DNA of 64,000 bases from a virus. A program made the translations under genes and the position numbers. A model generated the notes under the pieces. The model saw only the letters and a program-made list of their open reading frames with translations. It had not been told where the DNA came from and made no database searches. Positions 1,218-58,531 of this stretch are shown piece after piece. The stretch is from the IMG/VR virus record IMGVR_UViG_3300036406_001035, positions 1-64,000 of that record. One strand, given 5' to 3'. Each line of letters starts with the position of its first letter. The stretch's first letter is position 1.

Positions 1218-4200
1218 TTATATATGACATTTTAATATTTCAATAATATCATCTTCTGATATTAAAGCTATTTTATTATTAAATAAATCTTCTATCTTTT
1301 CATACCCTTCTTTTTTTAACATACTATCAATTTTTTTTAATTGATCTTCAGTTAAAGAATAATAAAACGATACAAGTTTTGCAGGATAGTATTTTGCTAA
1401 AGGAGAATACTTTTGAATAATATTAAGTTTAAAACCATTATTCATAGCATTTCTTAAAAAACTAGCTCTTGCATCTGAAAGACTTTTAGCAAATCTGCCA
1501 AAGGTAGGATTTGTTTCTGATTCATAATAATATACTCCAACTAATTCATTCTGCTCATTAACAAAATATGGTTGAAACATTACATCTGATCTTGAAATAA
1601 TATCTTTATGAACTTTATTTGTATCATAATTATATAATTCTATTAATTGATCGTATAGAACTCTTAATTCATCAGAAAACTCAAATTTAGATAATCTATG
1701 ATTTAGTCTTGATAAATCCTTATTATTAGTAGATTTATTTAAATCCCTTAATTGATCTAAACTTGCTTGTATTAATTTCCCTGTATTAGTTTTAAGTTCT
1801 ACTTTTCCTTTACTTATTTTTCCTGTAACTTGAGCTTCAAATATTTCATATTTCCCTCCTAATATTACAGTTTTAAATATATTCTTATTAGAATTTACAT
1901 AATTTTCAAGTTCAACATTAATACTTGGAGAGGTTTCTATTTTATCTATGACTTGATTTCTATTAACTAAAATAATTTTACCTGTATTAGTTCTAACTTC
2001 TATTTGGCCTCCGCTTATATTTCCTGTGATTTGAGCTTCAAATTCAGTATATTTTTCACCTAATTTAATAGTTTTAAATATTCCTATGTTATTTTTTACA
2101 TAGTTTTTAAAGTCTTCCGCTCTCTTCATATAAGCTAATATAACTTCTTTACGTTTAGTAAAATATTCTTTATATTCTGCTTTTTGATCATTTGTAAATT
2201 TAGGTGACTCCCAGGCTTGATTTAATTCTTCTAATGTATTAAATGAATTAATTCTATTTATAATAGATTGTTTAACAGCAGGTGTTACTTTTTTTGGTAA
2301 TGGAGTTGTAATTTTTTTAACGCCATCAGAATAACCTATTATTCCTTCAATACTATCATTTAACGGTTTTATCTTTTTTTGATTTTTTTCAATTTCTGAA
2401 TTACTTTCAACTGGCCTTATACCATTTATTGTAGATAATGTAATATGTGGATATTTATTCTTAGAAAGAGGATTATCAACTAATAATACATCTAATTTAT
2501 CAGTAGTTAATCTTCCTATAATTTTAATTTCTATTGGATCACCAATAGGAAGATTACTTATATCTTTAGGTTTAAATTCAATAGTAGAATGATGAGAATA
2601 TAAATTCTCATAAACTTGACCATATTTTTGTATAAGAACATTAGTATCAACAAAAACAGCAGAATATACAGGAGATTTATTGCTTGATAATGTAGGTAAA
2701 GCTTTCATTCCTGATTCTGATTCTTCTGAGTTATTTTCTTTCTTTTTACTCCCGTATTTTACAAAACCTCCTACAAGACTGTTAACTTCATCTTCCGTTA
2801 AAGTTTTACCAGTAAATATTTTAAGCCAATCTCCAAGTTTTTGCAGTAATTTAACCCACCAAGTAGGTTTAGGTTTATCAACTAAAGTTTCAGCCCACCT
2901 TGCAGCAAGCTCCATAAGAAGTTTTGTCTTTCCCTCTCTACTGTCTTTATCAAAGCCGTAATCAATCATTAAATTTTCTAAAGAAGTATGTCCAGTTCTT
3001 TTTAAAAGTTCTGGTAGCTTCTTTATTAACTCTTGCTCTGCTCCTATAAGAGCGTCATGTAATTGCTTTACACCTCCTAATTCTTTAGCCATACGAAGCA
3101 TACCTCTATGTGCTACTTCATGAATAGCTACTTTAGCTGCTTCTTCTTTTTTGACATTAGCAGCTATAATAACTACTTTATCATTTGTGGCATCGTAGTA
3201 ACCCTGTATTCTATTCTCGTTTGTTTTAGACAAAGGTAAATACTCTATATTTAGTTTTAGTCTTAAAGTTTGAATTGTGTCTATATTAATATACTTATTA
3301 AGAGTATCTAAAATTTCCCTTGTAGTATATTGGTCTAAAATACGAGCTTTTTCTTCTTCTGTACCATCTAAATTATTTACTATAAGATTTACTTCTTCTT
3401 TTTGTTGCTCTGGTAATTGAAGATATATTGCTTGTCGTCTATTTCTTTCAACGATAAAAGCTTCATTTGCAGCTATATTATCTGGATCAGCTTTAGCTTC
3501 AACTGTTAAGTACTGAAAAAGACTAAAATCTTTTTGCATAGCTAACTTAGCTAATTCTAAGTAGAAAGGTAATTCTGATTCTATATTTCCTATCATCTGT
3601 GGACTCTGCTCTATAGTAAATTTGGCTAGTTCATAATCAGCTTGAAACTCAGGTTTAAGAGCATAATAGAATTCAGTGTTAGGTGTTCCTCCAACTCTTT
3701 CAAATAAAAAAGTTCTAGCTTCTTCTAACGTGTTTATAGCAGCTGCTCTATCTTCTATTTCTGCATAAGGTCCGTAAGCGAGGTTATAGTATTCATCAAG
3801 ATCACCATTGTCTTCTGCATAGGTGAAATCTTTATCTTCACCACCACTTTCCTTAGCTTTAATAGCAGCTTGGATTGTAGAATTATTAGTATCTAACCCA
3901 TGCTTTTCAAAAAAAGCTATTGTATCTTCTAAGTGGTCTATAGAAGCTATTCCATTGTTGTTAACAGAAGTAACTTCTTTTACTTCTTTTTTGCTTTGTT
4001 GAATTACAAACTCTTCATTGGTTTTTTTAGCATATTCATAAAGAGACTCTTCATTTTCAAATGTCTTTTCATATGTGCTATCATTCTCATTTCGTGTAAA
4101 TCTAGCTTTTATCAAAGATGGGTATGCTTCAATTCCAACTACTGTTACACCATCTACTATGAGAATATAGTTGTCAAAGTTTTCTACATAATAAGAAGCA

Positions 4201-6272
4201 TTGTAAGTAGCTGTACACCATGTTGCAGGAGATAGTTTACGAAGAAGTTCTACGTTAGCTTTGAACTGAGAATTCTTTGCTTTTGTAAGTTCATTTTCTA
4301 TATCTTTAATTAATAAATTTACCTCTTCTGAACTTAATGTCAAATCACTTAATAGTTTTTTTATTTTATTATCTTCTACAAAGTAACGTATATTTTTATA
4401 AAGAAAAGTCGTCTTTATAAGACTTGGATCTTTTAACCCTTTAAGTATTTCAGAGTAACTTACAAGACCCTCGTCGCTTAAAGGTTGCTGTGTTCTCGGT
4501 ACATGTACCCAATAACCTCTACCACTAGCTGATCTCTCATGTTTCCCAGCCTCTGCTACAACAGCTAAAACTTCCTTGTCGTACAATTTTCCAATTCTAT
4601 TAAGTTCATGAGGTTTACCTATTACTAACCCATAAGTATTTTGTAGAGCTGTTTCACTGAGTTGGAGAACAAACTTATCTCTTCTTTGAGGATTAAGATA
4701 TTTGATAGCGTGTTTAAGCATTGGATGTTTAAACCAAGTAGGGTACTTTTCTAACGCTGCTTTCCATTTTTCATAAGATTCCTTAGCTATGGGATTTTTT
4801 TTAAACTCTGCATATTCTTGTTTTAATAGCTCATTATAAGTATCTTCAATAAGTTTTTTTACTTGATCTTCTGATGTAAAATTTTTAGGATGTTTATTAC
4901 CTTTATTTATACCTAACCAGTTTATTAAGGCTGGATCTGTAATTCCATTTGCTTCTAACACATCTTTCATTGCTAAATACAAATCATCTCTTCCTAAAAT
5001 TTCTTCTGGAATAGTTTCAAGTATAGTAATTGTATCAGCTATTTCCTTTGGAAGTTGTTCTTTAATAGTAGTTTCTAAAACTTTAGCATGTGTAGTAAGA
5101 TTGTTTTTTTCTCCCTCTACTTCTTTTTTACTTACAAACTCTTTAAATCCTTCTATATCTCGTTTACTTCCTAATATGTGTATTTGTTCTGGTTTACTAG
5201 AATATTCTTTTAAATTTCGTCCATCATCAGTTTGAGTTATACCGCTGTACGGATTATTTATAATAGCTGGTGTAATTTTGATTTCAAATAATTTTTTAAG
5301 ATACTCTTTTTTTTCTTCTAAATTTGCATCTCTACCATTTATCATGATATTGAAAGTTTCAGGGTTTGTATTCTTTTTCAAGTATCCTGTTTTACCAGGT
5401 CTTCCCCCCCAATACTCAGCTTCTTCTTTAGAAGGAGCAAAATATATATCATGATCTTTTTCATAAAGAGTTAAATCTAAAGAGTTTCCTTCATTTTTTC
5501 CATGATAAACAATATCTTTTACTTTACTATCAGGAAATATAGTGTCTAAGTATTGAGAATATAAAGAAATAGCTTGTTGTTTTTGTTGTGGGGTTATCTG
5601 TTGAATTTCATCAGAAGTTTTAATTCTAAAAGCTCTTTCTTCCGTTACAAAACTATCTGGATATTCTTTACTTGCTTTACCAATATCTCCTATTTTTTCA
5701 GCATATCCTTTTTTAACTAATGAATTTAATAATTGTATTTCTTGACTACTATTTTGATAATCAGAGTACAAATTACTTTTATAGTCTTTCTTAGCTAAAT
5801 CTGCCATTAAAGTATGAACTATTTGTCCATAACCTTTACTTTGATATTCATCATTAATTTCAATAGATAGTCCTAATTGTCCTTTTTCTCCATTATTTAC
5901 AAACTTAACTCTGCCTATTTTTTTATTATTAAGCTGAATAAACATCCAACCAATACTTGTTTCTTTTGATAGTGTTATTTCTTTAGTATCAAATGTAGAT
6001 TGATTAAACCCTAAAGCTTTATATACTTGATTAGCTAATTCAGGAGTAGAATCAAATAATTCTTCTATTGCTGGTTTAATAGGAACTGCTTCTGAAGGAT
6101 TAGTAACTTCTTCTGAAGATTCAGGAATTTGAGATATAATACTTGGATCTGAATAAAAATAATCTGGAATATTCTCTTTATACATATTCCAATAAAATAT
6201 TGCTTTCTGTCTATTTTTTAAGAAAGAAAGCAATTTAATCCAGCGTTTATCTTGTTCTATGGGACACAACAT
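1218..6272 (-). CDS. Giant polyvalent virion-cargo protein (GNAT-like, ART-like, zincin, 2H phosphoesterase-like)
   Basis: A 1,684-residue multidomain protein. Residues about 107-200 look like a GNAT acetyltransferase, with QSKGYGQ as the acetyl-CoA loop. Residues about 262-385 resemble the ADP-ribosyltransferase-like domain of phage polyvalent proteins (VYHG, IYFAPSKEEAEYW, PEQIHILGSK). A WCTA segment lies near residue 685. A zincin motif HEVAH lies at 1051-1055. Two HxT motifs (His1228, His1276) beside a beta-rich segment suggest a 2H phosphoesterase. Two similar repeats of about 70 residues follow near 1385-1525. Polyvalent proteins are known to combine such domains and to enter the host with phage DNA; that use here is inferred. 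The gene lies 2 bases downstream of the ferritin gene and 1 base from the next start. Domain calls are by eye; the zincin and ART-like calls are the safest. Confidence 0.85.
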   Translation of the reverse strand: MLCPIEQDKRWIKLLSFLKNRQKAIFYWNMYKENIPDYFYSDPSIISQIPESSEEVTNPSEAVPIKPAIEELFDSTPELANQVYKALGFNQSTFDTKEITLSKETSIGWMFIQLNNKKIGRVKFVNNGEKGQLGLSIEINDEYQSKGYGQIVHTLMADLAKKDYKSNLYSDYQNSSQEIQLLNSLVKKGYAEKIGDIGKASKEYPDSFVTEERAFRIKTSDEIQQITPQQKQQAISLYSQYLDTIFPDSKVKDIVYHGKNEGNSLDLTLYEKDHDIYFAPSKEEAEYWGGRPGKTGYLKKNTNPETFNIMINGRDANLEEKKEYLKKLFEIKITPAIINNPYSGITQTDDGRNLKEYSSKPEQIHILGSKRDIEGFKEFVSKKEVEGEKNNLTTHAKVLETTIKEQLPKEIADTITILETIPEEILGRDDLYLAMKDVLEANGITDPALINWLGINKGNKHPKNFTSEDQVKKLIEDTYNELLKQEYAEFKKNPIAKESYEKWKAALEKYPTWFKHPMLKHAIKYLNPQRRDKFVLQLSETALQNTYGLVIGKPHELNRIGKLYDKEVLAVVAEAGKHERSASGRGYWVHVPRTQQPLSDEGLVSYSEILKGLKDPSLIKTTFLYKNIRYFVEDNKIKKLLSDLTLSSEEVNLLIKDIENELTKAKNSQFKANVELLRKLSPATWCTATYNASYYVENFDNYILIVDGVTVVGIEAYPSLIKARFTRNENDSTYEKTFENEESLYEYAKKTNEEFVIQQSKKEVKEVTSVNNNGIASIDHLEDTIAFFEKHGLDTNNSTIQAAIKAKESGGEDKDFTYAEDNGDLDEYYNLAYGPYAEIEDRAAAINTLEEARTFLFERVGGTPNTEFYYALKPEFQADYELAKFTIEQSPQMIGNIESELPFYLELAKLAMQKDFSLFQYLTVEAKADPDNIAANEAFIVERNRRQAIYLQLPEQQKEEVNLIVNNLDGTEEEKARILDQYTTREILDTLNKYINIDTIQTLRLKLNIEYLPLSKTNENRIQGYYDATNDKVVIIAANVKKEEAAKVAIHEVAHRGMLRMAKELGGVKQLHDALIGAEQELIKKLPELLKRTGHTSLENLMIDYGFDKDSREGKTKLLMELAARWAETLVDKPKPTWWVKLLQKLGDWLKIFTGKTLTEDEVNSLVGGFVKYGSKKKENNSEESESGMKALPTLSSNKSPVYSAVFVDTNVLIQKYGQVYENLYSHHSTIEFKPKDISNLPIGDPIEIKIIGRLTTDKLDVLLVDNPLSKNKYPHITLSTINGIRPVESNSEIEKNQKKIKPLNDSIEGIIGYSDGVKKITTPLPKKVTPAVKQSIINRINSFNTLEELNQAWESPKFTNDQKAEYKEYFTKRKEVILAYMKRAEDFKNYVKNNIGIFKTIKLGEKYTEFEAQITGNISGGQIEVRTNTGKIILVNRNQVIDKIETSPSINVELENYVNSNKNIFKTVILGGKYEIFEAQVTGKISKGKVELKTNTGKLIQASLDQLRDLNKSTNNKDLSRLNHRLSKFEFSDELRVLYDQLIELYNYDTNKVHKDIISRSDVMFQPYFVNEQNELVGVYYYESETNPTFGRFAKSLSDARASFLRNAMNNGFKLNIIQKYSPLAKYYPAKLVSFYYSLTEDQLKKIDSMLKKEGYEKIEDLFNNKIALISEDDIIEILKCHI

Positions 6273-6274
6273 AA

Positions 6275-6763
6275 TTAATCTAAATAATTTTCTCCAATAT
6301 AATGATCATAAAATAACTCATCTTTAGTTTTAGAATATATATCTAAAAAAGTAATAGCTTTTTCTAATTCTTCTACTTGTTCATGACAATATTTAGATGC
6401 TAAAGAATATAATGTATGAGAGTTTTCTTTTAATGCTAAAGAAGCTAAATCATTACATTGATTTGTAATTTCTTTTTCATGAGATAAGGTTAAATCTAAT
6501 ATATCTTTTAATGAACTTATCTCATAAATATCATTAGGAGCATTTAATTCTTTTAAATCAGGTTTAATACCATGAGCTAAAAGAAAATCAGCAGCCCATT
6601 GAGCATGATCTAATTCTTCTTGAGAATATTTATTATATATTTTACTAAGATTTATAAAACCTTCATCATTTAACCATAAACTCATTTGTTTATATAATCT
6701 TGATGAGAATTCTTCTTGTTGAATTCTGTAATTTAGTTGTTCAATTATTTTACTTGTTAACAT
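6275..6763 (-). CDS. Ferritin (non-haem, FtnA-like) with intact ferroxidase centre
   Basis: A 162-residue protein with the length and helical pattern of bacterial non-haem ferritin. The residues matching the E. coli FtnA di-iron site are all present: Glu17, Tyr24, Glu50 and His53 (in EELDHA), Glu96 (in SHEKEIT), and Gln129 and Glu132 (in HEQVEELE). The numbering is almost identical to FtnA. The family oxidises Fe(II) and stores iron inside a 24-subunit shell. The start ATG at 6763 overlaps the stop of the giant polymerase gene, so the two are probably translationally coupled. A ferritin is unexpected among virion-cargo genes: it may protect packaged enzymes or the host from iron-driven oxidation, or seize iron. 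The family call is secure; the role is unknown. Confidence 0.92.
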   Translation of the reverse strand: MLTSKIIEQLNYRIQQEEFSSRLYKQMSLWLNDEGFINLSKIYNKYSQEELDHAQWAADFLLAHGIKPDLKELNAPNDIYEISSLKDILDLTLSHEKEITNQCNDLASLALKENSHTLYSLASKYCHEQVEELEKAITFLDIYSKTKDELFYDHYIGENYLD

Positions 6764-9700
6764 GCTTTTTCAATTAATGTTTTTTCTATAATAGGTTGTA
6801 ATACATCATTGTGATCTAAAATCAATGTTTTTAACAAACTGTTAATATCATTATATGATATATCGTAATTATCAGCAAATATATAGAATAATTCTCTAAT
6901 ATCTGCATCATTCGTGTATAATTCTTTATAAAACACATATGTATCTATTTGTGTCTGAGAAAGTTGTATTTTTTCAGATTCTATAGTTTCTTCTGGTAAA
7001 GAATAATCTTCTTCAATATATCCTGGAATTCTTGAAGATAATGAATCATATATATCTTTAGTTTCTAAATACCATTGTTGATCACCTAAAGCGGTTATTT
7101 CTTCATATAGTTTCCAATTTGTTGATTTAGGTAAATCTAACTCTTCAACAATTCCTTTAATTTCTTCATTTGGAAGAACTCTTAAAAACTTAGATTCTAA
7201 TTTCTCAGTTTCTTCAAATGAAAATATATCTTCAGATTCTATTAAATTTGAAATATTTCTTTTAATATATGGAACTCTTGAATATACTCTATAATAAGTA
7301 TTTCCATTATAATCAATAATATTAGAATTTCTTATTACTTCAGGTTTAATGTCAACTAATAAAGGATTTCTATGATTATTCCTAACAAATATATCCCATA
7401 AATTACTTAAGTCTACATTTAAATTAGTTAAATCTAAGTATTTAGATACTTTTTTAGCAAATAAATCAGCAGGTAATATTCCTGCTAAAGATGTAAACTG
7501 AGCAGATAATCCAGATTGTAATATACTATAATCTACTAAATCTTCATAAATACTAACTAATTCTTCATAGAATTCTTTTTTTGCAGGTAATCTAGAAGAT
7601 TTCATTCTTGATAACGCTAATTCATAGGCATTTTCATGTTTTTGAATTTCAATATCTCTATCAATTGTCTCTTCTTCCTGATATTTTAATAATCTAATTT
7701 GAGTCTTTAAATCTCCTCCAAACTGTCCTCTTAATGTATAAGATATATTTTTAAATAAATTATGAGATTTAAAAGGTTTATAATGTTCACTAGTTTGAAT
7801 AGCTTTTATTCGAGAAGCTAATCGTTTAAACATAGTTTCATGATCTTGAGTAGGTCGGAAATTAGGATTATTTTGAACTAAATAAGATAATAAAAATGTA
7901 TTAAATTTATAAACTAAATCGTTTTTAGCTTGACCATATGCTAATGATATATAACCCTGAGTAGCAATACTATCTAACAAATTAGAAAAAGTTGGATCCG
8001 CAACCATTAAATATGGTGCTAAATATTTATCAAAATCTTTTCTATTGTTATATACAGTTGATAAATGACTTTGACTAAATATAGCATCTAAATTAGTAAA
8101 TGGAGGAGATAACCTTCCTAATAAACTACTTACAGTATTTAGTAAACTTCTATTTTCAATAAGAGTTTTGGTTTTCTTTGACTCTATATTAGTTGCTGTA
8201 TTTAAAGTAGATAATTCTTGGGCAGGTTTTAATAAACTCATAAATAATCCCAATGAATAAATATCTGTTTCATGTTTTATTTCATTAGATATATTTCCTG
8301 TTAGTGATTTTTCTAAATTTTTAAGATAATTTTCACTCCCTTCAGAAGTAGATATATTAGGAAGAGCTACACTTTTCTTAATCATGTAAGATATTCTATT
8401 TATCTCTTCAAACGTACCATAATTAAATATAGTCTCTATAGTTTTATCTGTTAAAGAAATATATTCTGTTTTCTTTTCTTCAGCTGAATAAAGATCTAAT
8501 TCATCTTGAGTATTAATTTTTTCTGCATTAAATGGTATTCTTAAATGTTTTAAACTATCTTTTCCATACATTCCTCTATTAGATTCCCATAATACATAAG
8601 CTTCTGCCATAGCTCTATTCTGGGATTCATTAGAAGATTTCCTTAATAAGGAACTAACATTATTATATCTTGCTACATATCTCTTAATTGAAGGTTGATT
8701 AATAAAATATAATACTTCTTCAATAGATACACCTAATCGAATTAACATTAAAGCTACATTAATAGTAGAATTGTTTAAATTTAATCTTACAGCAAAAGGA
8801 TCTTTAGCAGCATCCACAAAAGCTGATAAAAATTCTGATAGATTTGAAGAGATTAATCTTCCTTTACTATCATATACTTTATCTAATCTATTAGATTTAA
8901 TAAACGGAATGTGTTTAAAAGTATCTTCATCTGAAAAGGATACATTAAACATTTGAGTTATTTGATGTCCTGTAATATGAAGAGCACCTGCACCAACAAG
9001 ATTCTTAGCACTTACCATGATATTTCTAAACTCTGTAGAACCATAAAACGTTGAAAGATGATAAGATTTCTTTTTAACTTCTGAAGAATTAATAATTTTA
9101 TCCATAGCTTCAATAGTAGAAGCAGAATTAGGAGCTAAGTGCTGAAGTCTATTTTCAGGTAATGAAATAAGTCGTTTCATTAATTCTATATTTCTATTTT
9201 CTAAAGCTTCTAGACTATTTTGTTTTAAAATAGGAAGTTTAGAAAAATCATCAATAGACATATAACCATATGTTATAGCTATCTCATTTGGAATATTTGG
9301 AAGATCTTTTGTTAATAACTCTGTTTTATACTCGTTAAATTCTTTTAATTTTTCACGAATTAACTCAATCTGATCTTGATTATAACCAGCTGCATTTAAT
9401 AAAGTATCATATTCAGTTTGTAATGTATATAATAAAGGTAATACATCAAATGGTGATATAACTATATTTCCATCTTTATCTTCATATTCAATTTCTTCTT
9501 TATTAGCTAAAGCTTCTTCATATTCAGAAATTAATTCTGAAGTTTTTTGAATATGAGCTATTGTTTTTTCTAATATTTTACTTTCACTATTTTGAAGAGT
9601 TTCTTGTAAATCAAAATACTCTTCTTTGATAATATTAGGTAATTGTCTAAATGTTTTTTTAGTAAAAAACTTAGATAAATCTTCTTTATTTAAATTAATA

Positions 9701-12700
9701 TTTAAATCTGAAGCCATGTCTTTAATAGCATCAAATATCCATTGTTTTAATTTTCTATAAACTTTCTCTTCATTTGATTTAATATAATTATTATATCGTA
9801 AACCTAATTCTTCATCAGATGTAGAATACGAAATATATCTATAGTTTCCTTGCTTATCCTTATAATAATGTGGGAAATATAAATTTAATTTATCTATATC
9901 AAAATCCGATCCAGATTTACCGACTAATTCAGCTGGAACAATAATAGCATCACCATAAGATTGATCTAAAAATCCTACAATTTTAATTTTTTCTACTTGT
10001 CCGAATGACTGAGTAGGAATACGATATCCTATTAATTCTAATAATTCTGGATCTATTTTAGAAGTATTGAGATTTACTAAACCTTTTAAATATGAAGGTA
10101 TTTTTACTTCAATTGTTCCATCTTCTAATATTTTTAAATCTGTAGATGAATATCTTATAGATTTTTCTTCATCTGCGGATAATTTCATTCCTTGAGTATA
10201 TTCAGTCCAAATACCTTTACGTTTAAATAATGGTTTTAAATTAGACTGTTCAAATACAGAAGATATCTGAGGAGCTTGAGTTCCTTTAACTTTTTGATGA
10301 ATTAATGTTCTATCTAAAATAGAATTCAATATATATTCTATTCTATGACGTTCTGTAGAAGCATCAAATTTATAAGGTAATTTCCCAGTAGAACTATCTA
10401 CAACAAACATGTCTTTAACATTAATTGGTAATTTTAATAATTTTGCTTGTTCAGATAAAGTTTCTACTAGATTTGATAAATTATCTGTTACGTAATAATT
10501 TCCTTCTAATTTTAAACCTAATTTCTTCATTAAACTATCATAACCTCTTTGATAAAGTTCATTTAAGTTTGCATAATATTCATCTACTAATTCTTTAATA
10601 TGTGGTTTATTTTTAAAATGATGAGATAAATTACCTACAATAAGTTTAGTAATTTGTACTCCTCTATTTACAGAATTCTTAAATTCATTTGGAGTTTCTT
10701 GTTGAATACCAAAATCATTAAATTTCATTTTTTGAATAAAAGGAATTTCAGCATTAAATCCATCAATATTATATAATGGAGTAGAATTACCATCTTTTAA
10801 AATAGCTCCTATTTTTTGACCAGATTCAAAACCAATTAAATCAATTTGATTTTTTTGCCAAGTAATATACTTATCTCGTAAAATAGGATTATTTTTAACA
10901 CGAGACCAAGATAATGGAACTACTGAGTTTTTTAAAAATATAGGAATAGCTACATCTAAATTATTTTGATTAAAACCAGATCCTTGAGGTTTTAAAACTT
11001 GTAATACAGCAGAATTAGCCTCTTTTTTAATTTGAGGATTGTTTATAAATTCTAAATCTTTAACTTTTTGCTTTGTTGTTAAAGGTCTATAAGCAGGATC
11101 AGTTTTTGGTAATTCAGATCTTTCTATTCTTTCTAAAGCCATTTCATATTGAATATGTACTTTTTGAGATCTAGTTAATTTTCCTGATTTATATAATAAA
11201 TCATAAAATGTATCTAACATTATATAAGCTTGAGCATCTGCTAGTTTTAATTCTTCATAAGGAGCTAATAATGTACCTGGTTCAGCTGTGATTTCTTTTA
11301 ATGTTCCATCTTTCTTAAATTTAGCTCCTACAAGTCTTTCAATAGTATCATGACTATGTTTATCATTTTTTAATACTTTATAGAAATCTTCAGCAATAGA
11401 AGTTATTCTTGCTGATACGACAATAGGATCTTTATAAGAGACAAAAGATAATAAACCATCTCTGTTTTTTCCATCTAATCTTTTAGATGTTAAATTTAAA
11501 TGATTATTAATTGTAATTGAATTATCTTGACTTTGCTTAGAACTAGCTAAGAAACCTGCTCGTTTACCAAAATCTCCTTTTTTATAAGCACTAAATGGTC
11601 CATATAAAAATCCTTGTATGTCTTTATTATATATCTCGTAATTTACAGTAACTTGAATAGCTATTTTTCTAAATATATGTTCTAAATTAGATGCTGTAAT
11701 ATCTTTATATCCAGCTTGAGCATAGATCATATATATTTCATCAATCTTTTTAAAGAAAAAACTAGCTAATCTTCCACTAGCTATACTAGTATTTTGATTT
11801 TTACCAGTAATTCTTTGAATATACTTTTCTCGTTCTTTTCCTTTTATACCTTTAAAATCTAAATATGCGTTTAAACCCTGGTTCATAAATTCAATTTCTT
11901 TAGAATTTAATATTTGTCGAGATATTAATACTCTACCATCAATATTCTTAAAGAATCCTGCTTTATATAAATTCTGATAATCATTTTCAATTTGATTTCT
12001 TAAATATACATAGATAGAAGGTATAGCAGATTGTAAATAAGAATATAATCCTGATTGAGTTGAATTATAATCATTTGCAATCTTTTCAAAATCTTCTTTT
12101 GAAAAGTTTACAATATCTTGATAATAACCAAGTTCTTTATTTTTTATTTTATCTTTTAAAAATTGAACGTTTAAAGCATCTTTTGAAAACAGTAAGTCAA
12201 TCTCATCTTTAAGTTGAGGTAAGAAATAATTTTCTATGATTTTAACAGCTTCTGTATTTAAAGAAGAACTTGAATTATAGTCTTTAGAAAAGAAAGAAGG
12301 ATTTAAATCTAAAGATTTTAGTAAATATTTATCATTAAATGATAAAGAATTTTCCATATTCTTATCAGAATTCATTAATAATGAATAATTACCTGATAAA
12401 GCTGCAACTGCTTTAAAAACTAATTTATCTTCTAAAGACATTTTAGAAAAAGAAAACCCTTTAACATTAGTTTTATCTTGGATTCCACTTAATAATTTTA
12501 AAGTAATCTTTGAATTTTTATATTTAAGTCCATTTTTATCAAATAAAAATCCTCCTTTTTTAAGGAAATAATTATTTTTTAATCCTAGCTTTAATTCAAA
12601 GTTATTATGAAAATGAGGATAAGACAATAAAAAATCATTATAATTATCTACAGAATTATATACATTAATAATGTCAGAAATAAAAGTAGGATTAATGATT

Positions 12701-15700
12701 GAAAATTCAGCTTTACCATCTGAATTTTTATAAGATTTAGAAGAACTTGATTCTTTTGATGCTATATATTTTGATAATGTTCTAAAACTTGATTGAGCGT
12801 AATCTTTTACTAAATCATCAAATATAACAACTTGTCTAAATTTTATAATACTTAAAATAGTATCAAGAGCTTGTATTATTTCATCTTCTTTTGGATCACC
12901 AATATCAATACCTAAAATATCTTTAAAATAGTCTCTTTGTTCATACTTATTTGTTAAACCTTTTTTTGGAAAAATAACCTGTCCTTTATTTAAATCTTTA
13001 TTTAAAGTAATATTAACTGAAGAACTTAAAGAAGCTTTATCTTGTACATTACTTATCCAACTTTCAAGTAATGCTGTTTGAGAACTTTCATATACAGGAT
13101 TTTCCATATATACAACATTATCAGAACTACGTAACACAATCGGTTCATATTCAGCATTTTTAAATGATGTTACAAAAGCTAATCTCATTTTGATAATATT
13201 ATCACTTAATGAACTATATCCTATTCCTAATTTATATTTTAAATCTTTAATCCAAGTTTCTTTATTTTCATAAAGAGATAGCTTTTCCATCATAGCATCA
13301 AATAATGCTACTTCTTGACCATCTTTATAATAAGGAACTACATTAGCTAGCTTATTTAATAAGAATGTTTGAATAGTAGTAAAATCAGGTTTTTTATTAA
13401 TAGTTAATGTTATATCCCTTGTTTTCCCAAAATAAGTATTTACAACAGCAGGTTGTAAAACACCTGCTTCATTAGCAGTATAATATTTTAAATTATTTAA
13501 AAGAAATCGAGTAACATTATTTACATTAGAAGTTGGATTTATTTCATTTGTAGGAACTATACCTTCTTTTGAAGATACTTCCATTTCATCTAAACTATCA
13601 ATACTTACAAAAGAATCTAATTTACTTTTTTGTAAAAAGACTTGAGTAGCGTTTTCTAATAACTCTTTTCTTAAGGAATCATTTTTAAATTCAAAATTAT
13701 CATCAAAAAAGGAAAAACCTTTAATTTTTTTAGTTTTGAACTCAGATTGAAGTTCTGTTAATAATGCATTTCCTTGTTCTATAATATGTTTTCCTATTAA
13801 TTCTGATGTCGTAACATCATTTTCAATATTATTATCAATAATATCATAAATATTAGAAAAACCTAATAAAGACATAACTCTATCATAAAGCATAGAATTA
13901 AATAAATGTACATGATTTAAATCTATATCTTCTGCTGCAAAACGTTGTCTAAACTGAATTCCTAAATTAAAATCACTAATTACTTCTTGAGAATAATTTC
14001 CAGATGCTATTTTTTCATATATATCATTAATATTATCAATAGCTTCTTTTTCAGATTTTTTAAAAATCTTACTAATATTACTAAATAAACGTTTTAATAA
14101 ATCTAATAATTTTAAAAAGAAGTTATTTTGAATAGGTGCTTTTGGTTGTAATTTACGATTTTTCATGAAATCAATAAATCCTTCAGCTAACATCTCTTTG
14201 ACATCATTATCAGTACTTTCAGAATATTTAACTGTTTTTTTATTAAAAGGATTTTTATAAGTACCTTCTTTAGATTTGAATTCTTTTATTAATTTTTCTT
14301 TAGTATCACTATCAATAAAATAACCCCACACAGCTTCAAAAGCTTCATGATATCCTGTACCAGATCCTGCGTTTTTCCATAAAGTAATAAAACTACCAAT
14401 CAAAGCTCCTTGAGCTACACCTTTAATAGCATCAGAACTAACTTGAACAGAAAATTGAGGTAATATTTCAGATAACCATACTTTGAACTCTTCTATATTT
14501 TCTATATCTGTACTATCTGTAAATAATCTAAATGGAGGTTCCTCATCTATGCCCTCATCACTATCTTCATAAGACTCATCTTCTTCATTTTCAGAAGTTT
14601 CTTTTTGAGCTTCAGGAGTTTCTTCAGGAGATTCTCTTTCATTTTTAACTTCATCAGTACCAGGATCTTCAGATTCTTCAGTTGATTCGTTTTTCTTTAA
14701 TTTTTCAATATTAATAGTAACTTCATCATTACTATCAATAGTAACCATTAAATTAAATTTAATACCATAAGGTATTACATCTTGATCAAATTCATCTTTA
14801 GTAACTTGAGCTGCATTTATAGAAGTATTATTCCATATATCATTATCAAAATATTTACTTACATTACCTGCTAATAATATATCATTAGGACCTACTATAG
14901 ATAGATATATATTATTAAAATAATATATTTTATTCCCATTCTTTTCTTCTGATGGAGTTGTTTTCTTTAAATCGTTTGTAAAGAAATGTTGTATAGACAT
15001 AGGATCTGTAAAATTATCTTTAATCAATTTAATTTTACTTGTTCTATATATATTTTTCTCATCATTAGTTTGAATGTTATCAAATCCAAACTGAGGATCA
15101 AATATTAATTGTCTATTACTTTTAACAGGTAATCTATCATTTACAGGAGTTGGAATTGTTATAATTTCTCTCTCTATTAAATATTCTTCATAATTTTCAT
15201 ATATTGTATCAGTTTCTTTATCTTGAAAATATTGATATGCAGTATTTAATTTTGTTTTATTAATATGTGGATAATGAGATGAAAAAAATTCTACTAAACG
15301 ATCCATAGAATCATCTATAGACCACGTAAATCCTAACTTAGGATTATTATTATTTCCAAAATAAGGAGCAGCTATAAATTGACCATTTACTATTCCAACA
15401 GAATTTTTATTATATGCTGTTGGTGTTGTTAAATTATCAAACCAATTTAATACACTTTTTAAATATAATTCTTCAGAAGTTTCAAGAATCTCTCCTGATA
15501 AACTTTTTTTAATTAAATTAGCTAAAACTTGAGCTTCGTTTTTATTAAACTTCCTTCTTAAAGTCTTAGTGTATTTCCCATTTTGATAAGCATAAACAGT
15601 TCCTAACTTTAATTCATGATATTTAGTCTCAATAGCAGTTTCTAAAGTTGGAATATGAATACTATAATCTTCTGATAATTTTTCATATTTTACTTTAGAT

Positions 15701-18700
15701 ACACGACCATCCTGAACCCCTGGAGTTATACCAATAATAGGTTTTAAATTATTCTGAACAGCAATTCTTAATTTATTTACATTTATAACGTCTTTATTAT
15801 ATTCTTCTACTAAAGATAGAGAATCTATAGCCATCTGATTTAATCCTAAAATATAATTATTATATATTTTATCAATGTCTTGTGTAGAATATTTTTCAGT
15901 TCTAGAAAATTTTTCAGTAATTCTATCAATAGGGAAAGTAGATGATTTATCATAAATTAATCCTGTAGGAATAGTTTTATTAGATAAAATATCTATTAAT
16001 GGTATTTGTTCAGGAATAGTTTTTCCAGTAGGAAGATTATATACAATAGGATTATTGTCATTGTCTATCCCAACAAGTAAATAAATTAAATCAGTAGGAT
16101 TAGCTTTATAATCCTTATAAAAATCTCCTTCTTTATCTTTTACAATTGATAATGCTAATTCAGAACTAACTGGAATAGGTAAAAAGAAATGATCTTTTTT
16201 TAAATCTAGAATTTGATCATAAAAATATGATTTAGCTATATTATTTAATTGGATTTTCCCATTTCTAAAATCAGCCCCATATGTCTTAAATATAGTAGTT
16301 TGACTTAAAGGAGTCCTAGAAGCATCAGCTCTATAATCTTCTTCCTCTAAAGAACTATTATCATTATCAGGATCACCATATTCAACAGGACCTTGTATAG
16401 GTGGTCTTTGAGCTGATTTTCCCCCTGATGCAGGATCTCCATTTGTAGGTTGTTCTAAAGCAGCTAGTTTGCCTTCTATTATTAATCTCTTTAATTCAGA
16501 AATAATTAAATTTTTTTTAGGTTTAAGAGTTCCTTTGGTTTGGATTTCAAATCTAACACCATCTTTAATATAACCAATAACTTTAAGGATGTCACCAGAC
16601 TCTTTTCCTTTATGTAAAGAATCTATAGGAAATAATTCTTCTTTTGTTTTACTTTCTATATCAGATTGAGTAGTAGATATAGGTTTCTCTAATGATTTAT
16701 TTTTAACCTTCTCAGCTAATAAATTAGTATGACTTGTTTCCTTCCCATTTGAATCTTTAGCATCAATCCCTGTTTTAGTGCCTTCTACATTTAGCCCCTT
16801 ATCTTTAAAATATTGTTCAATAATAGGCAATGCTAAACTTACATCTCCTTTTGTCGCACCGTGTATTACTATATTATCAAATCTTGTAAGCAAATCACTA
16901 TACACTCCGGGCATCTTCAAATGCCCGTTATATCCTGCATCTTTCAGTAGTTGGTATAAATCCTTAAATGTTTGTTCAAGATTTTTACCCATTTCCCTTG
17001 CTGAATTTACATCTAATGTTACGTACCCTTTATGTCTGCCATCTTGTTCTTGATTTGCAGTTTCACCAATACTAATACCTGTCCAAGCAGGATTAGCATT
17101 TCCTCTCATTTCTTTATTATTATCAACATTATTAGCTTGCTGTCTATAATCTTGATTCTTTTCAAATATTTTAGCCCACTCTTCAGGACTATCATTAAGC
17201 ATTTTCTCTCTTAATTCTGGTCTAACAGTAAGTAACTTATAAATCTGCTCTTGACTTAATCTATCTGAATGATTATCTTGTAAATATTGAGCAAATTCAT
17301 CTTGTGTTTTACTTGCTATTTCAGATTGAGTAGTAGATATAGGTTTTTGTTCTAATTCTTTTAGTTCTGCATCATATTTAGCATTGATTTTATCTACACC
17401 TGTTAATTTTAAAAACTCGTTATTACTACCTTGTAAATAATCTCCATATAATTGAAAACCTATTATATTTCTAATATTTTTATAAAGTTCAGGAAAATCT
17501 TTCTTTAAGTTATCATCTCCTACTACTTTATAATTCCAATTTATTCCTTCTGAATTTCCTCCCTCTACTGTAATTGAAATATCACTAGGTCCTTTAGTTT
17601 TACCATAATTTATGTTTACTCTTCTCCCATCAAAAACAAAAGTAAAATTTTCTTCTCCCGTAACTACATTTAAATCTATTGGTGCTCCATAACCACTAAA
17701 TCCTATCTTTGAACCTTCAATTCTTGCTTTAAAAATACCATCTGGTGTAATATTAACGTCAGAGCCTTGATTACCAGCAACTAATAAATCAGCTATAGGT
17801 GACTTTTTAACATCTTCTACAAATTTCAAAACATCATCAGCACTTCCTATATAAATAGTAAAATCAGATTCCCCCTGCTCACCACCTGAAAGAAACTTCC
17901 ATATGCTAGATGGATGTTCATCAGTAAAACCAAAAAGGGTATATCCTTTAATAGCTTCTGATACACTCCCTTTACTCTTTGTTCCAAAATAACTATTTAA
18001 CCAATCAACAAGTTTTTGTGCTTGCTCATTATAATGTTTATCGTTTTCAAGAGTTTTATTTCCAGTATTAAAATAATTTCCACCAGTAGGAGATTTAATA
18101 TTAAATCTTATTTTCCAACCTGATTGCCCTCCTTTAACATTACCATTAGGTAATCTATTTTCATTTTTATATCCTAATTTTTGTAAAATAGATTTACCTA
18201 AAGAGTCATTCTCTTGTCTTATTCTTTCTATATCAGCTTTAGCATCTGTAGAAACAACAGGTTCTACTTTCTCTTCAGGATTATCTTCTGGTTCTTGAGA
18301 ACTTTCAGTAACAGTAACTGGTTTAGGTTTTGGAAGATCTTCTGACTTAGCAGGATTTTCAATTTCTGAATTTATAGCTTTTTCTGACTTTTGAGCTTTT
18401 TCAATTAATTTTTTAACGTCTGTTAATTCTTCAAATGCTTTATTTTCTTTTTGTAAAGAATCACTTACTTGCTTTTTAAGATTTTCTAATACTTGATATT
18501 GAAGATATAAAGGATTATTGTTTTCTTTTTTAGCTATATCTAATACATCTTCTGATGTATTATTAGGATTTAAATAATCTTGTGAATATTGTGGATCTGC
18601 TAATAATTCAGATTTAATATCATTTAACTTTTCATCAATTTCAGAAACCATAGTATTTAAATCATCTTGAACTAAAGCTGATCTAAAGACGCTATACATA

Positions 18701-29900: not shown

Positions 29901-31315
29901 TTTTGAGTTAACCACCCATCTTCTAGATTTATATTATCATTACTAATATTAGAGTTATCTAAAAATCTTTTAGACCATTTTTCTTCTAAAGGTGCAGAAG
30001 CTATTTCAGCCATTTTTTCAGCATCAGGTTCTATTTTATATCTGTAATCTCCGTAAATGTTACTTACAGGAAACCCTTCTACATCCATTGTATTTTTACC
30101 AGATTTAGTTATACTTCTTCCACTAATATTAAAAAATTTATTTTTGTTATTTAAAGGGTTTTTTACTGCTCTAATAAATGTATTAGATTGTTTTACCAAA
30201 TTATCTAAAAAAATATTATCAGGTACTTGAGGATTTTTTAAATGATCATATATTAGATCAGTATATTGAGGAGATTCTTCGGCTATATTTTTAAAAACAT
30301 CATAATTATTAATTAAATTTATTTTTTTATTATATTCATCCTCAATGTAATTTAAAAACTTTTTTTGACTACTCAAAGACTTATCCATCATTAATTGGGC
30401 ATCTGCAAAATTTTTTAAATTCTCAGGTTTTTTTAACATCCAACTTTGGATTCCTAAGTCTCTTGAAAAGTCTACATTAGGGTTTATTTTTTTTAATCTT
30501 TCTGATTCTAATAATGCTTTTTTAACAGTTCTTCTAAAATCTTTTACTGTAGAATATTCTCCAAACCTGTAATCATTTAACATTTCCTTAGCAATATTAG
30601 CATCAAGTTTTCCTAATGCCTGTGTTGTATTTGGAGATAAAGAAAGAGCTAATTTTTTTAGTTCCTTAAATTTATTTCCGCTAAATTCACCTATCAAATA
30701 TTGTTTTTCAGGTAACACTCTTTTAAATCCTTCTTGATAGTCTTTAATTTTTTTTGCATTAACTATGTCAGCTAAAGGGTTTACTAAGTTATTAACAAAT
30801 TGACCTGTAGTTTTAGCACCTATTCCAGCGAATGCACCAACAGCTAAAGGTGCAACTACACCTGTTACATAAGGCATATAAGAATTACTTACATCAGATG
30901 TTAACGGAGCTTCACCTAATCCCGCTGCCATATCATATAACATGGTAATAGGATTAAATGTATTTAAAAAAGGTTGTTCAACTTGGTTTTCATTCCATCT
31001 ACCTTTATTTCTTAAAGATTGAGCATCAACATAAGCTCTTTCTTTAAGAGTCATATCTTTATATTTTTTAGTTACTCCTGTTGGAAGTTTATATGGCGTT
31101 CCTTTTTCTTTAGATTGTCTTGCAGCTATCTCATCTTGTAACTTCTTTTTTTCTTCATTTTTTCTAACAAGATTTGCATTTTGCATTGCAGCTTTTTGAG
31201 CTGGTGTATATTTGACTTTTGAAAAATTACCTTGATCTACAACAGGTTTATTCTCAGGAAATAATTGATCTCTAAACGATCCGCCTTGCTGATATTTTTT
31301 TAACTTTCTAATCAT
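26909..31315 (-). CDS. Tail-associated/cargo protein with C-terminal phage tail lysozyme domain
   Basis: A 1,468-residue protein. Residues about 1310-1450 match the phage tail lysozyme family (GLSRNAIAGIMGNIEHESSF with catalytic-type Glu, then GTSFGLFQHH, a spacer, and QIDFALSEYPQL). These domains cut peptidoglycan during DNA entry. The remainder is long and linker-rich, with recurring short glycine-pair peptides: YQQGGSF at residue 8, FKKGGI, MQGGGGF, KEQGGEM, YQEGGST, MKQGGTL near the C-terminus. A hydrophobic Ala/Gly segment (about 145-175) may be membrane-active. The start overlaps the muzzle gene stop by one base. The lysozyme call is firm; the structural role is inferred. Confidence 0.88.
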   Translation of the reverse strand: MIRKLKKYQQGGSFRDQLFPENKPVVDQGNFSKVKYTPAQKAAMQNANLVRKNEEKKKLQDEIAARQSKEKGTPYKLPTGVTKKYKDMTLKERAYVDAQSLRNKGRWNENQVEQPFLNTFNPITMLYDMAAGLGEAPLTSDVSNSYMPYVTGVVAPLAVGAFAGIGAKTTGQFVNNLVNPLADIVNAKKIKDYQEGFKRVLPEKQYLIGEFSGNKFKELKKLALSLSPNTTQALGKLDANIAKEMLNDYRFGEYSTVKDFRRTVKKALLESERLKKINPNVDFSRDLGIQSWMLKKPENLKNFADAQLMMDKSLSSQKKFLNYIEDEYNKKINLINNYDVFKNIAEESPQYTDLIYDHLKNPQVPDNIFLDNLVKQSNTFIRAVKNPLNNKNKFFNISGRSITKSGKNTMDVEGFPVSNIYGDYRYKIEPDAEKMAEIASAPLEEKWSKRFLDNSNISNDNINLEDGWLTQKSEDYSNWFKKRRQRNNQVKNVPMIVDQPMNIPQKYLNYPQHKIFTSDLNEQVLKGFDLSELNISNKDAYKYLPGFTRGFKKGGIIQDDRGQWAHPGQVTQIGSPNITMRGVNYPVLGVGADGQEIMMQPGGDYTFNQAPVTEYPMMQGGGGFISNLKKAYVDAYNNYNSRTFPAETLPQRQKAYRTINPSSYLDLRNYGRWVSDKQRDESYDPRSEEAFKFYLGLSKPEDLQYIRKSQYRPTINATDKYYYAVDPELEQDIFNAYKDKVKLNETLQTDESEFETALSGKGAAGLLGRFGVSKGHDENGDYLSYYDRYDLKDFAQKRTKGVPYSIYNRIYYPKKEQGGEMINYKSGGQMIKRADGSYSRPGLWDNIRKNAGSGKKPTAQMLEQERKIRNKYQEGGSTKQNPPKEYTDYKAFKKAERLYKDSLNLYNNNLNYKNKYLDFVNKAGFDKTKVEEWPTDGYVNTEQHPTIGAISNGVLKNSGGGFRRDSKGNPIYFNYFPLKNGKELKVYTDSFVGSILNKRYYNYKKPVEPVVYKPQSSVNKSKQSVNANRTEVMKKPIIPNLSEEYQYKKWKERYGIEDEILDRLPMLPYLTEDSDITMNSGQFKVPAPVVQQPKGRPVYGPGNTIIGYNNNMHFTPALQYTGAPNNASNLQDKALLENPDALRQYVSKLDNYRFDKGGVYSQALNNTINGLNQLSYFSKNSPDNAMRDYYMNMSNYDSNNKDLYSTNQDLYGNTYFDEGGSYEELSNEYNDLSELQAIASMDGDNELYEYLAPQISSVQKSLTSLEELAKYDVIKEELQRQILQQPQFQEPSIEGYNPRRPFTSNYESTDSEPMMLGTKIYPNMKLKGSPRNVKAYLTQKGLSRNAIAGIMGNIEHESSFNPGIGGDQGTSFGLFQHHAKRKDNLLSYLKKRNLDKTSIEGQIDFALSEYPQLIQKLNKAVSPQQAADIWVREFEKPANVEKQSKLRQRAALKYMKQGGTLPFLKQYK

Positions 31316-34300
31316 TATCTTGGAGAATTAACTTGTTGAGAATTTGATAAATAAAATATTAATTTATTAGGACCAGAAACAGTTCTTTCTAAATATAATC
31401 TAGAATGAGAATGCCTAAATAAAGTTTTTTCATATATAGATTTATTATAATCTATCGATAAAGGATTTAAGATGAAATTATAACCTGTATGATCTGTTAA
31501 TAATAAAGGTTGTGATAAACTTCTATTTATAGAAATATCTCTAAATTGATTAAATCTATATTTTTGTTCTACTTTATCTACATAAATATCATAAGATTGT
31601 GTTGAATTATTAAAATTAACTTTATCGTATTTAAGATGTTGTGACATCTTTTGTTTTTGTTTGGCATTTAAAGTTAACCATCCTGAACATTGTTCAGTAT
31701 TATATATTAATGCTTTGTTATAAGATTCATTTAAAACATGGTATCTATCTCTACAATTATTATTATATAAATAAGTTTCTGACTGAAACTCTATTGAATT
31801 TAATACTTGAACTTCAGGACCATTATTAATGGGTAATGTAAAAGCATGTGGATAATCTACTCCATAAAAGTTACAATATGAATCACACCTAACATTATGT
31901 TGATGAATCGAAGATTTATTATTATGATTAATTACAGAAAAAAAGTTTCTTTCCCCTACTAAATATTCAACAGGTTTATAATCATGAAAAGAGATATAAG
32001 CTTTTAATGAAGGACTATATGATATAGTCCACCCAGCATCAGCAAAATATCTTCTATCAGATAAGGACACTTGTTTATTGTTATAATAAAATCTATTATC
32101 TTTTTCATTATATGTAATTTCTGTAAATATAGGAACAAAATCAATCTTTGTTAAATAATATATTTCTTTAATTGGATCATACGCAGATGTTAATCCTACA
32201 CCATTAAAAGGATTATCATTATTTTTATAATTAGAAAAAGATTGTAATAACTTAGAAGGTAATTCTTTACTATGAAAGAAATACATTCCATTTCTTGATA
32301 TCTCATCTAAATTAGATGAAAATTGAAAAGAATTACCTTTTCTTTGAGAAGGATAAAAAAATCCAAACTTTGTATTATTAAACGCATATCGAGATTGACA
32401 GTTTCCAAAATTATCATCCGTTATCAATAAAGGTCTCGGATCTCGAATTAAAGAACCGTCTCCTAAATATACCGTTTCATTATCTACTGTTTTTAATTCA
32501 GCTCTTCCAGGTGTTATATATGGAGAAGATTTATCAAATAAAAATAATAACTTCTGATCACTAATAATTTGAATAGAAGTTAAGTTCCCAAATTGGGAAT
32601 TTGAAAAATTAAATGAATTATTTGGTAGAAAAGTTAACCAACTATCAAACTTCTGATCAACAAATGCAGGTAAAGAATAAACAGTCTTATTCTTTTTATA
32701 AGGATGATCCGTGGTCGGATCATAATCTAAAGCTTGTTGATAAAAGTATTCATCGTTCATTTTCTTAGATAAACTCTTATCATATATAAATTCTTCAAAT
32801 CCTCTCTCAGAACCTTTATTTTTAAACAAATGCTTTAAATCAGGATTCTGAGTATAAAAATCAGGTTTACTTTTTTTCCAATCTCTTAAATCTAAATTAT
32901 AATCTGATTCAACAATAAACTCAAATACACCATTTATAGATGTATAAAAATGAGAATCATTAATTAATGAAAAACCTTTTTTGTTCTTACAATCTAAATT
33001 GTATTTCTGTCTTGGTAGATTTGATTCTTTTGGAAATGATGATTTATTTGTAATACTTGGAGTAGGAATGATATTTAAAAACTCATACGGAGTAGTATCA
33101 GCCCAGAATCTAGGATACGCTAATGCTTTATAATTTCTATAGTTATAAGGAAATCCATCTGGTACTTCATATAATGGATCTGAAAATAAATCAGTTGGAT
33201 TATTGACAGAAAACTTATTAATATAACAATCTCCTCCTAATATTAACCCAGTAGAATAAGTAGTTAATAATGAAGGATTTGCATCTACTTTATAATAAGT
33301 CCCATTGGTAGCTACATAATTAATTGTATCTAATTGACCATATTGATTAGGATATGTTCGTTTTACAGTTCCATAATATAAAGTAGCTTTAGTCTCAATA
33401 GGTACATCAACCTCTCCGCAAGTATTAGATTTAGAAATTAAAATTTGAGAATTATCTCCTGTTAATAACTTAACAGATTTATTTAACTTTATAAATACAT
33501 TATCTTCTTTATATAAATTATTATATGTTTCTGTAGGTGAAGCAACTAATGTATTTAATCCTGATGATAAATATTGATAAGTATCAATACGTCTTCTATA
33601 ATTCTCTTTTTTAATTATATTTTGAATATTAAAAAAAGCTCTGGAATTATATTGTATAGCATATTCTTTCCATGATGTTACATTATATACTGTATCAATT
33701 ACTTTTTGAGCTGTTTCAGCCATAAAATAAGCAAATGCTCCAAATTTAGCTAATGAAGATAACGCTTTTAATAATGCTTTTTCAGCTGCTGAACCTGATC
33801 CAGCATCTAAATTAGCTACAGACTTTAATATATCATTAGTTCTTTGGACTTGTTTCATTTGACGGTATGAAACTACTTTTCCTCCTGTACCTGCTTCTGT
33901 GGTTACAGAACCGTCTGTATATTTTGTTTCAGTTTTAGCTCCTACAAAAGCTCTCATTACACCATCAATAGCACCAATTACAGTAGCATAATAAATAACT
34001 TTATCTGATAATAATTTAGCTTTAGGATGTTTATTTACATAACTGAAAAAACCTTCAACATTGGCTGTTTCTTGACTATTAAAAGTTACATAATCTCCTA
34101 ATCCAACTCTGTCAAATAAACAATGTGGAGAATAAAAAGTAAATTCATCAGTTTTAACTGTTTTTGGAGCTATATAATCTTTTTCTCCATTCTGCTTATT
34201 ATAAGTTTGTTTTTCAGATATAAATAAATCAGATTTAGTATAATTATAAGGATAGTTGGAATACTTAAATGTCTTTTTTGTTTTTTGATCAGTATATTCT

Positions 34301-57832: not shown

Positions 57833-58531
57833 TTAATTATTTTCTTCTTTTCTTTTATTAGTTATCTGATATGCAGATATATGTTCTGTGTCACCAGCTA
57901 AAATCGAAGCAGCTTCATCTATAATTAATTCAGCCACATCATCTTTAAAGTTTAAATCCTTATCCACACCATTTGAACCATCATACCATTCACAACCTTC
58001 AATATCAAACTTAGTAGGAAATCTATAATATACTAGCGTTAATTTAGAAATTTTGAATTCCTTGTTGGTATAAACATTGACTTTATTATTAGCAAGGGTA
58101 TAAAAACATTGGCTGAATTCAAAAGATGGTTGTTTTGACCAATCGTTTAACCATTCATTTACATTAGATTCTTCTATTTGATGAATATCTAAAATGAGTT
58201 GATCAGAACAATTTTCGGAACTTCCATAAATCCTTACTGATTTAAACCAACCATAATTTTCTGGTAAAGTTTCAGATTCAGTATATATTCCTTTGTTAGT
58301 AGTATTTAAATCTTGATATTCAATTAAATGTTGAAGATCATCAACACGTATTCTACTTTGTTCATCACCTTCTTTACTTAAATTAATACCGTGTATTTGT
58401 CTACGAACCCACTCTAATTGAGCTTTATTTATAGCTTCTCTTTTTTGCCAACATTCAATGTTAACATAATTCTCACTAGCAAGTTTATTTAATCTTTCAT
58501 CTAGCTTTATTTGAACAAGAGTAGGATGCAT
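57833..58531 (-). CDS. Conserved structural protein downstream of the capsid gene, 232 residues
   Basis: The N-terminus MHPTLVQIKLDERLNKLASE followed by a basic helical segment (QKREAINKAQLEWVRRQIHG) is typical of a conserved head-module protein in crAss-like phages. The C-terminal half is beta-rich (FKISKLTLVYYRFPTKFD). It shares one base with the 354-residue gene upstream and lies 20 bp before the 732-residue gene. A head-completion or portal-adjacent ring protein is plausible by order; no decisive motif. Confidence 0.72.
   Translation of the reverse strand: MHPTLVQIKLDERLNKLASENYVNIECWQKREAINKAQLEWVRRQIHGINLSKEGDEQSRIRVDDLQHLIEYQDLNTTNKGIYTESETLPENYGWFKSVRIYGSSENCSDQLILDIHQIEESNVNEWLNDWSKQPSFEFSQCFYTLANNKVNVYTNKEFKISKLTLVYYRFPTKFDIEGCEWYDGSNGVDKDLNFKDDVAELIIDEAASILAGDTEHISAYQITNKRKEENN

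Follow-up and report, generated by a model that had tools for sequence, protein, structure and literature searches.

The window, a 64,000-nucleotide stretch of viral DNA (positions 1 to 64,000 of IMG/VR record IMGVR_UViG_3300036406_001035), encodes a 162-amino-acid (aa) protein that is a class-I, FtnA-type ferritin with a full site A/B, Tyr24, and site C. Viral iron genes are usually classed as boosters of host metabolism; here, the virion operons of crAss-like phages repeatedly include a ferroxidase cage, which forms a clade of its own and is swapped with a Dps-like cage at one locus. This suggests that the production or protection of the virus particle involves iron control, and it makes the presence of iron-handling proteins in virions a directly testable question. 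Genes and sites in the window that are central to the analysis are listed in Table 1.

Table 1. Positions in the window of the ferritin gene, its junction with the vRNAP gene, and related virion genes.
Feature	Position	Strand	Evidence or remark
Class-I (FtnA-type) ferritin gene, 162 aa, ATG start	6275..6763	-	PF00210, PDB matches, ligand alignment, AlphaFold2, Foldseek
7-nt overlap ATGTTAA, ferritin start codon on vRNAP stop codon	6757..6763	-	ORF coordinates and sequence
Virion RNA polymerase (vRNAP), 4835 aa, upstream neighbor of ferritin	6757..21264	-	DFDID catalytic motif at residue 3787
Polyvalent-type cargo protein, 1684 aa, downstream neighbor of ferritin	1218..6272	-	ORF; weak GNAT match
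Crassvirus muzzle protein	31315..35913	-	PF25731, E = 1.3e-26; puts ferritin in muzzle-to-cargo module
g57833, 232-aa conserved late protein	57833..58531	-	Ferritin or Dps-like gene directly downstream in relatives

The protein belongs to Pfam family PF00210, which it matched with an E value of 2.2e-22 (79.9 bits, gathering cutoff of 24.5). Searches of PDB sequences returned ferritins with E values down to 1.8e-17, with E. coli FtnA (1eum) at 4.9e-16. An AlphaFold2 monomer model (pLDDT of 94.3) had five helices, A to E, at residues 4 to 33, 37 to 63, 85 to 112, 116 to 145, and 149 to 160, and Foldseek superimposed the model on E. coli FtnA with a TM score of ~0.90 and 31% identity. The first-pass annotation had listed a complete set of di-iron ligands matching FtnA, and alignment with EcFtnA bore this out: Glu17, Tyr24, Glu50, His53, Glu96, Gln129, and Glu132 all align, and no ligand is lost. 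The site-C glutamates, Glu49, Glu128, and Glu131, which had not been listed, align as well, and the class-I ligand set (Glu17, Glu50, His53, Glu94, Gln127, and Glu130 in EcFtnA numbering) is present in its entirety. The five-helix fold, sites A/B, Tyr24, and the site-C glutamates are thus common to both proteins, whereas the window ferritin differs from E. coli FtnA in being phage encoded, in lying in a late virion operon, and in belonging to a separate viral clade. Against the curated equivalog model NF007638 (non-heme ferritin, PRK10304), it scored 67.9 bits, below the cutoff of 178, and it is therefore a homologue rather than an equivalog.

Several other identities were considered for this gene. 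A chance ORF or a generic helical bundle is ruled out by the PF00210, PDB, and Foldseek matches, among which the closest relatives were ferritins and not other helical bundles. Dps is ruled out by the FtnA ligands and by the short helix E of the model, which separates FtnA-type proteins from Dps. Helix E and Gln129/Glu132 likewise rule out bacterioferritin, which would carry Glu/His at the latter two positions. The encapsulin cargo EncFtn does not fit a protein of five helices, and no EncFtn family was found among the Pfam matches at an E value of ≤0.001. Host contamination of one assembly is ruled out by an identical protein in a second contig and by more than 100 viral homologues.

The 142.5-kb record is viral by class, and matches to the Crassvirales muzzle, ring, capsid, and portal families were all found in the window phage, identifying it as crAss-like. 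Genes run in the order muzzle, lysozyme-bearing protein, several ORFs, vRNAP, ferritin, and polyvalent-type protein, which puts the ferritin into the muzzle-to-vRNAP cargo module, downstream of the muzzle gene and between those for vRNAP and the polyvalent-type protein. The adjoining gene had been called a virion RNA polymerase from its sequence, and a profile of its DFDID region matched the vRNAP of phage phi14:2 (PDB 6vr4; E = 9.8e-37); the match came with the profile only, as a single-sequence phmmer search of the vRNAP against the PDB gave none. The C terminus of the polymerase was too poorly conserved to serve as a scan query. The muzzle-to-polyvalent gene order is comparable with that of the gp44-gp50 module of PhicrAss001, the products of which are found in virions (PMC10172136). 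The vRNAP is one 4835-aa ORF in the window, whereas the RNA polymerase-associated proteins of PhicrAss001 are split over gp47, gp49, and gp50. Directly downstream of the muzzle gene, positions 26909 to 31315 encode a 1468-aa protein whose C-terminal domain is a phage tail lysozyme (PF18013, E = 5.8e-27). In the polyvalent-type protein, residues 91 to 163 gave a weak GNAT match (E = 0.013), and a HEVAH metallopeptidase-like motif was read in its sequence.

The first-pass annotation had the ferritin gene overlapping the vRNAP gene and touching the polyvalent gene inside a phage cargo (vRNAP) operon. All of this stands for what is now seen to be a crAss-like phage: the overlap is 7 nt, and 2 nt separate the end of the ferritin ORF from the beginning of the polyvalent ORF. 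The overlap leaves no room for an intergenic promoter and would fit coupled re-initiation of ferritin translation. Promoter-like sites at the ferritin locus were no more frequent than in shuffled sequence, and the sole terminator-like site in positions 5000 to 8500 (7466 to 7488) lies inside the vRNAP gene; cotranscription of the ferritin with vRNAP is therefore the simple reading.

Scans of viral contigs yielded 51 and then 136 ferritin loci, representing ~80 distinct sequences. Sites A/B and Tyr24 were invariant in an alignment of 78 distinct viral ferritins (78/78), while Glu49 of site C was replaced by Gly or Asp in 17 of them, so turnover or mineralization may vary within the group. Among close pairs of viral ferritins, dN/dS was 0.03 to 0.29, which points to strong purifying selection. 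In a quick tree, 43 representative phage ferritins formed one group (SH-aLRT of 100, stem of 2.3 changes per site) apart from 31 cellular ferritins, which were mainly from Bacillota, with some from Gammaproteobacteria, one from a haloarchaeon, and Thermotoga, and which included none from Bacteroidota as possible donors; a single origin of the viral ferritins is supported but not proven by this placement. The viral clade is marked by a conserved NYRIQQEE motif in helix A, and some of its members carry an N-terminal tail of roughly 25 to 45 aa.

A scan of ~85,000 species genomes found a ferritin of the NYRIQQEE type once among cellular genomes. It lies on a 5.5-kb contig of a Tissierellales metagenome-assembled genome (MAG), together with a beta-helix protein and with no clear chromosomal neighbors, and is 70% identical to a phage ferritin; the contig is probably that of a phage and was binned with the MAG. 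A second phage ferritin (L275 and L279:6983-7528, record G090) is very divergent and sits on a long branch; it comes from a phage without a Dps-like gene and, by eye, apparently lacks the Glu130 ligand. When phage records were searched by tblastn for isolated reference phages with a window-type ferritin, only unannotated fecal contigs and Staphylococcus-labeled records matched, at ~25 to 29% identity; the two of these fecal contigs that entered the tree fell with the cellular ferritins.

Viral ferritin genes were always codirectional with the neighboring gene, with gaps mostly of -4 to +30 nt. Directly upstream of the 79 distinct ferritins was g57833 in 36 cases, vRNAP in 18, and portal in 16 (18 if two near-adjacent cases are included). 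The ferritin tree needs at least seven changes among genomic positions, and the neighbors identified at each position are virion genes, which means that ferritin has changed virion slots more than once. The first-pass reading of a real ferritin with intact ligands in a cargo operon holds up, but its view of the gene as a one-off, iron storage having no standard place in phage cargo, does not: members of one viral clade are found in three or more virion-gene slots, and related phages fill the same niche with a Dps-like protein. Ferritin does recur at the vRNAP locus of crAss-like genomes, as members of this one clade, but among the 80 nearest vRNAP loci whose downstream sequence could be read, it was found in only two (the window phage's twin and one other). 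In nearly all 80, the polymerase gene is followed directly by a large polyvalent-type ORF of 1.5 to 2.2 thousand aa. Since the vRNAP and polyvalent genes usually abut, the ferritin is an insertion in the window lineage, and at this slot it is ruled out as a conserved core component of the cargo module.

In the window phage, the g57833 slot is empty, with a 20-bp gap to the gene at 55614 to 57812. Relatives of g57833 were gathered by a scan with an alignment query, and at most of their loci without a ferritin, the slot held another gene, of 126 to 174 codons, which encodes a DUF5856 protein (PF19174). Its profile matched Dps/HP-NAP at 6.5e-7, and its invariant His48, His60, Asp75, and Glu79 align with the Dps ferroxidase ligands. 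Almost all of its Foldseek matches were Dps or ferritin, the top ones mostly Dps (probability of 1.0, TM scores of 0.5 to 0.7, E values of ~0.002 to 0.01). The profile match, the lack of a helix E, and the intersubunit His/His/Asp/Glu site place the slot protein with the Dps/mini-ferritins, a different fold class of the ferritin superfamily from that of the window ferritin, which does not have these features. A search with a positive control found no DUF5856 Dps-like gene in the window genome.

Ferritin-bearing and Dps-bearing versions of the slot could be aligned directly. Between L038/L043 (ferritin) and L119 (Dps-like), the alignment ran at ~85% across g57833 and 11 codons into the slot gene, was absent from the remainder of that gene, and resumed at its stop codon; the same pattern was seen in L057/L087 and L040/L131. 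Ferritin and the Dps-like gene have replaced each other as a clean cassette between homologous flanks, with breakpoints ~11 codons in and at the stop codon. Of 46 ferritin-positive records, 3 carried the Dps-like gene, compared with 20 of the 27 that were ferritin negative (Fisher's exact test, 2e-9, with counts pooled from several record sets and uncorrected for relatedness). The three records with both genes comprise two tandem pairs (L036 and L048) and one case near the portal gene (L148). Neither protein was found in 7 of 29 genomes tested; the group can therefore do without the function.

The N termini follow the slot as well. An LKR tail motif occurred in 21 of 35 g57833-slot ferritins and in 33 of 57 Dps-like proteins, versus 33 of 4148 other ORFs, and in none of the 37 vRNAP- and portal-slot ferritins; the tail thus goes with the slot and not with the fold. 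The window ferritin has no N-terminal tail. The LKR tail may serve for docking or for contact with DNA, or it may be a mere mark of the recombination boundary.

The explanation that we favor, and consider probable taken as a whole, is that a ferroxidase ferritin cage is made together with the late virion proteins and neutralizes iron and peroxide, a Dps-like cage being its equivalent in most relatives. The phage-specific ferritin would assemble into a catalytically competent 24-mer. It would be translated late, from the virion/cargo transcript and coupled to vRNAP translation, which would supply many subunits during virion assembly. Fe(II) would be oxidized at the di-iron sites and stored as a ferric mineral, presumably reducing Fenton chemistry on phage DNA under packaging, as well as on the virion and cargo proteins, while the iron proteins of the host are breaking down. 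Dps-like proteins would do the same job in most relatives, so that these phages would keep one ferroxidase cage and exchange its type. Speaking for this explanation are the identity, ligands, and fold of the ferritin, the purifying selection among its relatives, its position in the virion module, and the cassette swap; the operon position, on the other hand, could reflect merely a convenient late slot. Infection of Yersinia by phage YerA41 induces host dps and catalase (PMC7354516), a response that fits oxidative or iron stress in the course of infection.

A stronger form of this explanation, which we hold only tentatively, is that the ferritin or Dps-like protein resides in the virion as head cargo or as a head/neck component, protecting packaged DNA or copackaged vRNAP from iron-driven oxidation. 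It would be retained by the N-terminal tail in g57833-slot lineages and by some other means in vRNAP-slot lineages. Not all of the readings weighed here exclude one another. The recurrent position by portal, g57833, or vRNAP and the slot-specific LKR tail agree with residence in the virion, as do a homologue directly after the portal gene of an unrelated podovirus and the annotation of the Dps-like homologue g280 of Yersinia phage phiR1-37 as a "phage structural protein." Also in its favor, gp217, a Phyre-predicted ferritin encoded beside a tail-completion gene in the Vi01-like phage Sajous1, was detected by mass spectrometry of virions (PMC10892097). Unlike the window ferritin, gp217 was assigned by threading at 22% identity, and it was not recovered in the tblastn search of phage records with window-type ferritins. 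Against virion residence, recombination that spares the first codons could have produced the common tail incidentally, the window protein is tailless, and the assembled cage is too wide for ejection through the tail: an intact 24-mer has a computed mass of ~457 kDa and is wider than the constrictions of <50 Å in the PhicrAss001 tail barrel (PMC10172136), which makes ejection of the assembled cage unlikely. The roles put forward in the first-pass annotation, namely shielding of injected enzymes, denial of iron, and packaging in the head, are conjectural.

Encapsulins, HK97-fold shells with ferritin-like cargo (PMC11202242), offer a parallel. We raise as a speculation, somewhat less secure than virion residence itself, that crAss-like virions carry in their HK97-type heads, as encapsulins do in their shells, a phage-specific ferritin or Dps-like cage, packaged or built in, that docks by an interchangeable N-terminal tail; the cage body would be exchanged and the dock kept. 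Common to both systems is the idea of an iron-oxidizing, ferritin-like protein tethered to an HK97-fold shell by a short terminal tail. The targeting peptide of EncFtn, a two-helix decamer, is mostly C-terminal, whereas the phage proteins are classical ferritins or Dps-like proteins with an N-terminal tail and putative packaging. If the cage is packaged, it would be a viral counterpart of encapsulin-ferritin compartments and would bear on their suggested origin from phage capsids.

Rather unlikely, in our judgment, is that the ferritin is a passenger, a late-inserted auxiliary metabolic gene without a virion role that mildly raises the iron or oxidative tolerance of the host. Late operons tolerate insertions, and the vRNAP-slot ferritin is an insertion missing from nearly all of the nearest relatives. 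Benler et al. (2021; PMC8008677) read the Dps and Mn-catalase genes of gut phages, including Gratiaviridae and Flandersviridae, in this way, as host tolerance genes. Those phages resemble the present case in that tailed phages of Bacteroidetes carry iron/reactive oxygen species enzymes of the ferritin superfamily, but no class-I ferritin, virion-module position, or swap is described in the text consulted. A passenger is also hard to square with a deep, separate viral clade, strong purifying selection, a slot-specific tail, and repeated exchange with the other ferroxidase cage at one locus.

Very improbable here is a role of the Ferrojan Horse type, in which iron brought into the virion by the ferritin is bait or cargo that exploits host uptake or feeds the infected cell. 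Such a role has been proposed for phages generally and was considered for Vi01-like phages that encode a predicted ferritin (PMC10892097). Speaking against it, ferritin iron is internal and presents no ligand to siderophore receptors, the Vi01-like study saw normal infection of TonB- and FeoB-deficient hosts, and the genes here sit by vRNAP, portal, and g57833 rather than by a receptor-binding gene.

Besides the phage Dps and Mn-catalase genes (PMC8008677), Dps-like genes in Lactobacillus phages, a giant-virus ferritin, and encapsulin ferritins were already known. In openly licensed papers, a search for crAss-like phages with ferritin, or for DUF5856, found no description of the ferritin clade or of the swap. 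In RefSeq T4-like phages, DUF5856 proteins (mobD.6) are annotated as a "starvation-inducible transcriptional regulator"; the Dps-like alternative to ferritin at the g57833 slot is a member of this family, and DUF5856, of unknown function in Pfam, thereby gains a likely Dps-like fold and role. Virion modules of crAss-like phages commonly contain DUF5856, which T4-like phages have as well; the Dps-like loci include L059:10705-11217, L063:10702-11154, and about 60 similar ones. TAG recoding is known in some crAss-like phages. In four genomes (G069, G070, G079, and G085), the Dps-like match spans one TAG, and although a frame of the annotated length can start downstream of it, recoding of this TAG is possible.
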